Positions 42,569-44,781 of a DNA stretch of 44,781 bases are shown here, one piece after another. The notes below the pieces were generated by a model, which ran no database searches, had not been told where the DNA came from, and was given only the letters and a program-made list of their open reading frames with translations. Each line of letters starts with the position of its first letter. Within the stretch, counting starts at the first letter, position 1. The DNA is taken from NCBI GenBank assembly GCA_019637955.1, contig JAHBUS010000014.1:1-44781 (forward strand), given 5' to 3'. The translations under genes and the position numbers were made by a program. Source of the stretch: Pseudobdellovibrionaceae bacterium. Lineage in GTDB: Bacteria; Bdellovibrionota; Bdellovibrionia; Bdellovibrionales; Bdellovibrionaceae.

Positions 42569-43267
42569 ATGCAAAGACTGATGTCCGTCGGAAAAACGTT
42601 GTCGATGTGTGCCCAGACTTACGGTTACCTTTCACGTTCCCGCCGACCAGGGGCGGATCTTGCTGCCCTTAAACAATCCTGGGCCGAAGAGATGCTCTCG
42701 CGCCTTGGCGTGAAGGTGCAAATCACTGGTGAAATTTCGCTCAAGCCGGGCCTCTTGTACGTCGGCAATCACATCAGCTATCTCGACATCCCGCTCTTAA
42801 TGGCGGCAGCTCCTGGCATCGCGTTCGTCGCAAAAAAGGAGATCGGCGACTGGCCTTTGTTTGGCGATGGAGCCCGCGCCCTCGAGACGATTTTCGTTCA
42901 GCGAGAAAGCGCGGCCAACCGGGGCCAGGCCCGGCAAACGATCGCGGCGAGCCTCGAACAAGGCCGTCGCATTGCGGTCTTTCCTGCGGGAACGACCAGC
43001 CTGAATGAAACCAAAAGCTGGCGCCGGGGCGCCTTTGAGATCGCACAAGAGAAGAACGCCGAGATTCAGCCCTTTCGCCTTCGGTACTCTCCGCTCAGAA
43101 CGGCGGCGTTCATCAACGACGATGCCCTGATCCCGCACATGTCAAAATTGATGCGCTCACAAAACATCTCGGCGCAGATTGAGTTTCACCCACCCGTGCG
43201 CGTGAAGAATGCGGCAGAATGCTGCGAGCACTGGCAGGCGTGGGTGCAAGAAGGAATTCACGGTTGA
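42569..43267 (+). CDS. plsC: 1-acyl-glycerol-3-phosphate acyltransferase (PlsC-like)
   Basis: 232 aa. 'YVGNHISYLDIPLLMAAAPG' is the acyltransferase His-x4-Asp block, 'VAKKEIGDWPLFGDGARALE' the substrate block, and 'RIAVFPAGTTSLN' replaces the usual FPEGT. It makes phosphatidic acid from lysophosphatidic acid or acylates a related alcohol. No long membrane anchor is seen. 34 bases after the ATP-grasp gene. Confidence 0.88.
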   Translation: MQRLMSVGKTLSMCAQTYGYLSRSRRPGADLAALKQSWAEEMLSRLGVKVQITGEISLKPGLLYVGNHISYLDIPLLMAAAPGIAFVAKKEIGDWPLFGDGARALETIFVQRESAANRGQARQTIAASLEQGRRIAVFPAGTTSLNETKSWRRGAFEIAQEKNAEIQPFRLRYSPLRTAAFINDDALIPHMSKLMRSQNISAQIEFHPPVRVKNAAECCEHWQAWVQEGIHG

Positions 43268-43278
43268 GAACTTTTGGG

Positions 43279-44781
43279 TTAGTTTTTACGGCAGAGCAAG
43301 AGAGCAACATACGGCTGACGAGTGTCCACCGTATGGGAGTGAGACCCATCGGCTGAAAGGGAGTGGGTATGACCCGCTCCACTGCCATTCGCCTGAATTG
43401 AAATCCCGGTCCCGGCAGCATAGATCCCGATCCCGGTTGTGCTGACGCTCGTTCCGGAACTGTGACCAGAGCCGCCCCGCCAGTCAGGTTCATTCCCGGT
43501 GGCGGCGTAACAGCATCCATCATCATTGATCGTGTGAGAATGGCCTGGGTCATAGACACCGTGGGTGTGTCCAGGATCGTTCACTCCGTGAGTATGGGAT
43601 GGCATTTGCGCAACCGAAATGGCCGTCGATCCGGTGTTGCCTGAGTGCGAGTGAGAACCATCGGTTGAGGTCGTGGCCGAATTGGCTCCGCCCGTCACCC
43701 CTAATGCGTAACTCCCGCCAGACCCGACGATCACTCGGTTTTGCCCCGAGGCGTAAGCCGTCCAACCGGTGGGACAGCTGGCAAGATCGAAGGCCATCAC
43801 GGCTCCCGAAGGGACAAGACCAGTGCCTGTAAACGACTGCCAAGCAATGCCATCGCAGAACTCCATGATCTTCAATGTCGAGTTGTACCGTTGACTGCCT
43901 TCTTGAGCTGATGCACATGCCGTCATTGATCCCATCTTGATTGCACCGTTCACTTCGAGTGCGGCTGCCACCGTGCCTCCAACCCCGATCCCGACTTTGC
44001 CATCGTTCTGGATCGTCATGGCGGCCGCACTCGTGGTGGTGCCACTGGAAGTAACCGTAAACTGAAGTGCCGACCCGCGCGCCGACGCCGAGTGCGCGCC
44101 CGAAGCAATCGAGCGGATCTCCGCCGCGTTGCTGGTGTTGTCGATTGAGTTTCTAAAGCTAATCGCACCCAGCGTGTCGCCATCAGCCGGGTACGCGGCC
44201 GTGGTCAGATCGCCCTGCCCGCGCTGCAAAATTAAATTCGGATTTGCCGTCGCCGAGTTCGTCATCAGCACAACTGCCGAGTCCGCATCTTCGCGTCTGA
44301 CTAAAATATTGCCGCCGTCCACGGTGAGCTTCCCCGCACCCGGGTTCTGCGCGCCGATCACCATCGATCCCGCCGGGAACGCGATGCGCTTGGCGCCCGT
44401 CGTGCCTGCGGGGTGCGCGAACATGAGCGTCGACACGGGATTGGTACCGGTGCCCATTTGATTGCTAATTGTCCAGCGGTCCACCGTGCTGGCGGTGCCG
44501 TTCCAGAAGTTCGCCGTCAGCGCCAAGTTCGGTGAACTTTGATTGGCGCCCGCGGTGGCCGCCGTTGTGGTTTGTGCCGTGATCCCGCCCGAGCTTGTGA
44601 AGCTCGCCGCACTCACCGAGTCTTGCACGTTCACCGCTCCCCCCACACCAAGGCCGCCGTTCACGACAAGTGCGCCCGAGGACGGAGTTGAGGAGATCGT
44701 GGTTTGATTGATGATCACTGAGCCGCCGCTTTGAGGCGTCATGGTGATGCTGCCACCCGCATTGGCGATCGAAGTGATCCC
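43279..44781 (-). CDS. tail-fibre-like surface protein with phage tail-collar C-terminus, partial
   Basis: At least 500 codons; the N-terminus is beyond the right edge. The body is Ser/Thr/Ala/Gly-rich beta repeats ('GALVVNGGLGVGGAVNVQDS', 'NDGKVGIGVGG'). The C-terminal domain begins 'VPSGAVMAFDLASCPTGWTA', a tail-collar start. It is full of His pairs ('GSHSHSG', 'PSHTHGVNDPGHTHGVYDPG', 'HSHTVDT') and ends QPYVALLLCRKN. Phage fibres with this plan bind metal and sit as trimers. In Bdellovibrio, chimeric fibre proteins of this kind act in prey recognition, which would fit here. Confidence 0.85.
   Translation of the reverse strand, partial: GITSIANAGGSITMTPQSGGSVIINQTTISSTPSSGALVVNGGLGVGGAVNVQDSVSAASFTSSGGITAQTTTAATAGANQSSPNLALTANFWNGTASTVDRWTISNQMGTGTNPVSTLMFAHPAGTTGAKRIAFPAGSMVIGAQNPGAGKLTVDGGNILVRREDADSAVVLMTNSATANPNLILQRGQGDLTTAAYPADGDTLGAISFRNSIDNTSNAAEIRSIASGAHSASARGSALQFTVTSSGTTTSAAAMTIQNDGKVGIGVGGTVAAALEVNGAIKMGSMTACASAQEGSQRYNSTLKIMEFCDGIAWQSFTGTGLVPSGAVMAFDLASCPTGWTAYASGQNRVIVGSGGSYALGVTGGANSATTSTDGSHSHSGNTGSTAISVAQMPSHTHGVNDPGHTHGVYDPGHSHTINDDGCCYAATGNEPDWRGGSGHSSGTSVSTTGIGIYAAGTGISIQANGSGAGHTHSLSADGSHSHTVDTRQPYVALLLCRKN

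Follow-up and report, generated by a model that had tools for sequence, protein, structure and literature searches.

Does the truncated gene at the edge of this contig encode the tail fiber of a phage, or does it encode a surface fiber with which the bacterium itself takes hold of prey or of some other surface? The gene is a minus-strand open reading frame at positions 43,279-44,781 of the window, by which we mean the whole stretch of DNA analyzed (44,781 bases). This window is the entire contig C6 of a source genome of 3.77 Mb in 14 contigs (G000), and thus the fiber gene has been cut by assembly: 500 codons and a stop are present, whereas the start is missing and the frame is open at the contig edge. 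Rightward extension of the gene was ruled out, as the contig stops at position 44,781. On the strength of sequence comparisons, we assign a probability of about 0.7 to the reading that the fragment is the outer part of a fiber of the mosaic adhesive trimer (MAT) type, of the kind that lacks an S74 domain, bearing a phage gp37/gp12-type needle tip that is probably stapled by metal ions.

The encoded protein has three parts, all read from the minus strand. A repetitive beta shaft (residues 1-262, positions 43,996-44,781) is followed by a linker module (residues 263-319, positions 43,825-43,995, GSMTAC..EGSQRYNSTLKIMEFCDGIAWQSFTG) and by a tip of about residues 320-500, which has VPSGAVMAFDLASCPTGWTAYAS at its opening and TRQPYVALLLCRKN at its close. 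The opening sequence marks the start of a collar-like domain (residues 323-345, positions 43,747-43,815), the C-terminal strand (residues 484-500, positions 43,282-43,332, ..DTRQPYVALLLCRKN) corresponds to the second half of that collar, and a needle region (residues 376-484, positions 43,330-43,656) lies between the two.

The needle carries six HxH motifs, with histidine pairs at residues 377/379, 396/398, 405/407, 414/416, 471/473 and 481/483, and these hold 12 of the 15 histidines of the fragment. Six such motifs arose by residue shuffling in 0 of 20,000 trials with the whole fragment and in 1 of 20,000 with its last 180 residues, a test that speaks to composition rather than to descent. 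The preliminary description was therefore right to call the tip rich in histidine pairs. It had also proposed a tandem repeat of two DPGHTHGVYDPG-like units; a repeat does exist, but it consists of three nine-residue units with one HxH each (MPSHTHGVN-DPGHTHGVY-DPGHSHTIN, residues 393-419, positions 43,525-43,605). Because these units are reported in the DNA by neither of two repeat finders, the repeat is present only at the protein level.

The tip is the part of the fragment that resembles phage proteins. Specifically, the fragment matches the tail-fiber family PHROG 8469 (E 1.1e-18) and, weakly, a tail-collar PHROG family, and it matches no Pfam family; the Pfam Collar domain (PF07484) is absent from the fragment and from the source genome alike. 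The earlier naming of a tail-fiber or tail-collar protein thus agrees with PHROG families but not with Pfam Collar. When the whole fragment was compared with 50,697 phage records, 11 matched, of which ten are Burkholderia phages, and the best place was always in the tip; Burkholderia phages also give the best of these matches; DC1, for example, is 42.9% identical to the window protein over 98 residues. A contig scan with the whole fragment gave 15 loci, mostly matching in the tip only. They come from bacteria that are unrelated, apart from a single record with the title Nanoarchaeota, and none is titled Bdellovibrio. Similarly, a scan of viral contigs with the last 120 residues yielded 36 relatives; in the best of them, L139, identity is 39.6% over 197 residues and the number of HxH motifs is again six. 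The choice of loci was guided in part by the sequence AQMPSHTH, and the constancy of that HxH in alignment A4 is accordingly in part a product of selection.

Among solved structures, the single sequence reaches the phage long tail fiber 8kec (E 7.7e-4) but not T4 gp37 (2XGF). A 20-row tip profile, in which the window sequence is joined by 19 others taken from viral contigs or other genome contigs, reaches 8kec at 1e-16, T4 gp12 (1ocy) at 0.0013 and T4 gp37 (2xgf) at 0.0047, the last of these over nearly the whole profile, and newer phage fibers are reached as well. Since most rows are of phage origin and seven of the 20 match Pfam Collar, the gp37/gp12 match places the family of the tip and not the window sequence alone. 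The tip therefore combines several C-terminal HxH motifs with a similarity to gp37 that is indirect, carried by mostly phage rows. When 200 residues of the tip were modeled by AlphaFold as one chain, with 20 rows, the result was poor (mean pLDDT 56.9), and the fold accordingly rests on sequence. The only parts near 80 are the opening and closing segments of the collar, as expected if the two ends of the needle close it, which is weak evidence.

The comparison with the receptor-binding tips of T4 gp37 (2XGF) and gp12 (1OCY) brings out both likeness and difference. A collar and an HxH-rich stretch are common to all, whereas the window tip belongs to no phage particle and its genome lacks a Tfa-type chaperone (PF02413). 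In gp37, paired histidines of three chains hold iron ions (PMC11705849, PMC8174754), and seven metal ions are cited for that protein (PMC11705849), against six HxH motifs in the window tip. Runs of HxH also characterize the needle fibers of Burkholderia DC1, BcepIL02 and E094 and of Alteromonas R22Y, which, unlike the window fiber, are phage-borne; the likeness to R22Y, with six HxH, and E094 gp23, with seven, is drawn from their published description (PMC11705849, PMC8174754).

The shaft points elsewhere. It is rich in Ser, Thr, Gly and Ala and contains VGIG-type blocks, and its best matches among solved structures are 8on4 (E 3.9e-6) and 8oml (E 8.3e-6), both of which represent Bd1334, a MAT fiber of Bdellovibrio bacteriovorus HD100 (PMC10769870). 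These blocks and the homology to the beta-helical region of Bd1334 confirm the low-complexity beta shaft noted at the outset. A printed segment of Bd1334 is found at 100% identity in G036, one of ten genomes searched, which belongs to the same family as the source genome and to a different genus. The window protein is matched by 23 of 59 genomes searched, the source genome included.

The MAT N-terminus, a signal peptide plus a conserved domain of about 130 residues (Bdello_MAT_N, NF053851), offers a further view of this kinship. The comparison covered 20 stretches around matches, the N-domain loci of the source genome and the G075 locus, in which 26 open reading frames give a match to the window protein at E<=1e-5; with one exception, these frames come from relatives, at places that had matched before. 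Eight of them carry the MAT N-domain (E<=1e-4), and six of the 26, being cut at the 5' end, cannot tell on this point. Together, the matches to 8on4 and 8oml and these eight N-domains tie the shaft to the beta-helical shafts of MAT fibers. As in the HD100 MATs without S74 (Bd1334 and Bd2133; NF053851), a long fiber with a homologous beta-helical shaft has many copies per genome, on whose kept shaft the tip is swapped; the fiber region of Bd1334 and Bd2133 is 75% identical, yet their tips are unlike (PMC10769870). What differs is that the window fiber ends in a collar of phage type from which an HxH needle extends, and that the N-domain of the window gene lies off the contig.

The MAT tips that we found described do not include one of phage type. 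Those reported are S74, two new beta-sandwiches, a TNF-like and a C-type lectin fold, and further tips are expected in other bacteria and, according to the discussion, tabulated in the supplement (PMC10769870). A tip of the window type is on none of the six crystallized MATs described in the sections of that paper covered here. The words MAT, fiber, fibre and adhesive do not occur in the main text of a comparative genomics paper (PMC11656739), and our literature search joining Bdellovibrio with tail collar found only cyanophage work.

The block structure of the gene is best demonstrated by alignment with two relatives. Relative to its own paralogue (C12), the window protein is identical at 92 of 97 residues (95%) in shaft residues 84-180 and at 53 of 81 in residues 181-262; identity then falls to 15 of 52 in the linker, which is at shuffle level (score 39, while shuffles reach 52), and returns with 21 of 23 at the collar start and 85 of 171 in the needle. 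The paralogue differs most at residues of about 420-470. A gene of G075, which belongs to the same genus as G036 (Bdellovibrio), gives the reverse picture, with a weak shaft match (19 of 46), a linker identical at 45 of 56 residues (80%) and a collar start at 16 of 23. The linker, absent from the genome's own paralogue, is also common to MAT-type genes of other genomes (L135, 31 of 58; L119, 29 of 56), and L119 has a MAT N-domain. Thus, judged by sequence identity, the window gene is a block-wise mosaic in which exchange is visible module by module: the same shaft and tip occur with another linker, and the same linker with another shaft and tip. These block identities are the pattern of a conserved fiber with an exchanged C-terminal tip. 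The G075 gene (L102 2696-4386) itself has a tip of collar type at its end (..ETRPKNVAVLFCRKN). Immediately ahead of the gene, in another frame, comes part of a MAT N-domain, its first half only (NF053851, 100 bits, profile positions 4-81). The locus is probably a MAT gene in decay whose tip is of phage type, and among our finds it comes closest to combining a MAT N-domain with a collar tip.

If the fragment is the outer part of a MAT fiber, then where is its anchor? The fragment has no match to NF053851, as its N-terminal region lies off the contig. The source genome has eight matches to this family, seven of them over the cut-off, whereas none of 14 control genomes has any. The eighth (G000:C1:761418-761753) falls below the cut-off at 30 bits and lies in a 695-residue frame. 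When all 28 contig ends of the source genome were read, ten proved to lie in MAT-type fiber genes, and evidently the assembly broke inside these repetitive genes. N-domain pieces, all four scoring over the cut-off, run off the end of C1, the start of C2, the start of C4 and the end of C14, while C-terminal pieces without a start lie at the starts of C1 and C3 and at the ends of C6, C7, C11 and C12, so that four N-terminal pieces face six C-terminal ones. Two C-terminal pieces end in an S74 chaperone (C7 and C11) and two in HxH tips (C6 and C12); the C1 piece has an internal C1q match, and the end of the C3 piece is nothing that Pfam recognizes. The MAT-type piece of C2 also ends in S74, and the same contig holds an unbroken frame of 2316 residues (L101 4479-11426) that has a MAT N-domain and, close to its end, an S74 chaperone. 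The pieces at the C1 start and the C7 end share their first 40 residues, which suggests that a repeat was collapsed.

Joining the fiber fragment to one particular N-terminal piece was dropped, since neither overlaps nor synteny pair them. Exact suffix-prefix overlaps are absent both between the four N-ends and four C-ends (10-399 bases) and among all pairs of the 28 contig ends (15-299 bases), and the C6 and C12 shafts have no blastp match to the N-terminal pieces at 1e-5. Pairing through the acyltransferase that adjoins the fiber gene, with 12 loci (L203-L214) from 59 genomes searched, produced no flanking frame matching the neighbors of the N-terminal pieces and no MAT N-domain in the flanks.

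The missing half could in principle hold a different anchor, such as the type IV prepilin-like helix that some shorter related frames carry within this order. In G056 (L118 3816-9599), a helix of the GFSLASVMVGVAIVGI type opens each of four neighboring frames, which are 349-525 residues long and resemble the shaft and linker region of the window protein, and by eye the short frames L123, L128 and L130 also begin with a hydrophobic helix. We regard such an anchor as unlikely here, because four MAT N-domain pieces in the source genome await C-terminal halves and because the fragment already measures 500 residues even though further shaft lies off the contig; the prepilin assignment, moreover, was made by eye and with a simple pattern rather than by family search. 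The G056 frames are of interest in themselves as a possible second way to anchor tips of this kind.

A prophage, or the remnant of one, with the rest of its genes past the edge of the contig, would account for the tip, which matches phage tail-fiber families and many viral contigs, and the 5' side of the fiber gene does lie off the contig. The genes that can be read, however, are cellular. An acyltransferase gene (PF01553, positions 42,569-43,267, plus strand), which is no part of the fiber, runs toward the fiber gene, the two stops being 12 bases apart, and the 3' neighbors recognized by Pfam are this acyltransferase, a RimK-like ligase, a dioxygenase, BFD, DHH, GreA and GDPD; the next ten window proteins are respiratory, transport or signaling proteins wherever any match exists. 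No tail, baseplate, head or capsid gene occurs among 20 window proteins scanned with Pfam, five of them also with PHROGs, all on the 3' side. PHROGs applied to these five and to two neighbors of the paralogue found DHH phosphoesterase and RimK-type ligase families and nothing else, and the two frames convergent with the paralogue have no PHROG match. The paralogue's contig end likewise adjoins cellular genes, as judged from translations. Upstream of the four N-terminal pieces, ten proteins include no tail or head PHROG family, and a single one of them matches protease and unknown-function families. Given in addition a MAT-like shaft and the lack of a PF02413 tail-fiber assembly chaperone in the source genome, we consider a prophage origin of the gene very improbable. 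The earlier statement that no phage structural genes surround the fiber holds for the scanned 3' side; the 5' side lies off the contig.

A MAT-type fiber with a phage-type tip is thus the preferred reading. The original guess of a Bdellovibrio-type chimeric surface fiber is well supported by shaft homology, by membership in the family of the Bd1334 genome, by seven N-domains and by the absence of phage genes among the neighbors scanned, and its putative role in prey recognition follows the MAT fibers studied, which act at predator-prey contact (PMC10769870); the further idea that the tip decides specificity is a hypothesis. Members of the MAT family are characterized as trimers on the predator surface, placed where prey is touched or in the prey-deposited vesicle. 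An alternative would have a MAT-type fiber bind kin of the cell, a surface or a food particle, or serve to capture metal. Nothing in the present analysis demonstrates predation by the source organism, and HxH needles in phages have been proposed as iron carriers (PMC11705849). With the fibers studied acting at prey contact, we nonetheless hold a role other than prey recognition to be unlikely, and in the window fiber we probably see another exchangeable grappling hook of a family already known.

The fiber could operate as follows in this member of the Bdellovibrionaceae from outside the genus Bdellovibrio. The fragment would be the C-terminal part of a trimeric surface fiber of MAT type, whose missing 5' part would most likely encode a signal peptide and the conserved N-domain that holds the fiber on the cell. 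By homology to Bd1334, three chains would wind into a long beta-helical shaft. Toward the chain end, the first and last segments of the tip domain would supply the halves of a collar from which a thin needle emerges. With six HxH motifs per chain, each set of three could bind one metal ion, which is iron in T4 gp37, and so pin the trimer. The loop at residues of about 420-470, between the outgoing and returning HxH motifs, would form the far end of the needle and contact prey or another surface. Finally, the tip appears to be exchanged as a block, with phage as its probable ultimate source. More broadly, we offer tentatively, at somewhat less than even odds, the view that predatory Bdellovibrionaceae arm their MAT fibers with working receptor-binding phage needles of the gp37/gp12 type. 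On this view, collar and HxH needle were acquired together from a phage as one block, which was duplicated in the genome, diversified at its far end and shuffled with a separate linker block, such that phage host-range parts, along with their metal staples, are reused and prey range is widened.

MAT fibers are leading candidates for the basis of prey choice in Bdellovibrio-type predators, and few of their tip folds have been described. If a phage-type HxH needle indeed serves as such a tip, predator host range would be tied directly to phage host range, and phage receptors such as lipopolysaccharide and porins would become the first ligand candidates, which makes the role of the tip testable. 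Because this assembly breaks inside MAT genes ten times, the MAT repertoires of other draft genomes may also be under-counted.

The complete HxH tip is rare in the genomes sampled. With a two-row tip profile, which would miss distant tips, two of 66 family genomes match, the source genome with two full copies and G075 over profile positions 9-70 only, so that the full tip occurs in one of 66. In a sample of the phylum, 12 of 368 genomes match, all partially except the source genome, and a viral scan with this profile gave one locus. A 341-residue frame from G041 (L133 986-2008), of the same order, has a VGVG-type shaft and a phage-collar-like C-terminus (ETRPKNVALLYCEKD), and is a further candidate for a collar-tipped bacterial fiber. 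In viral contig L138, at least four separate frames (4004, 4535, 5875 and 6598) carry the collar-start motif AVM(S/A)F(N/D)LA(S/A)CPTGW or a sequence near it, and these copies are a repeated or shuffled tip cassette.
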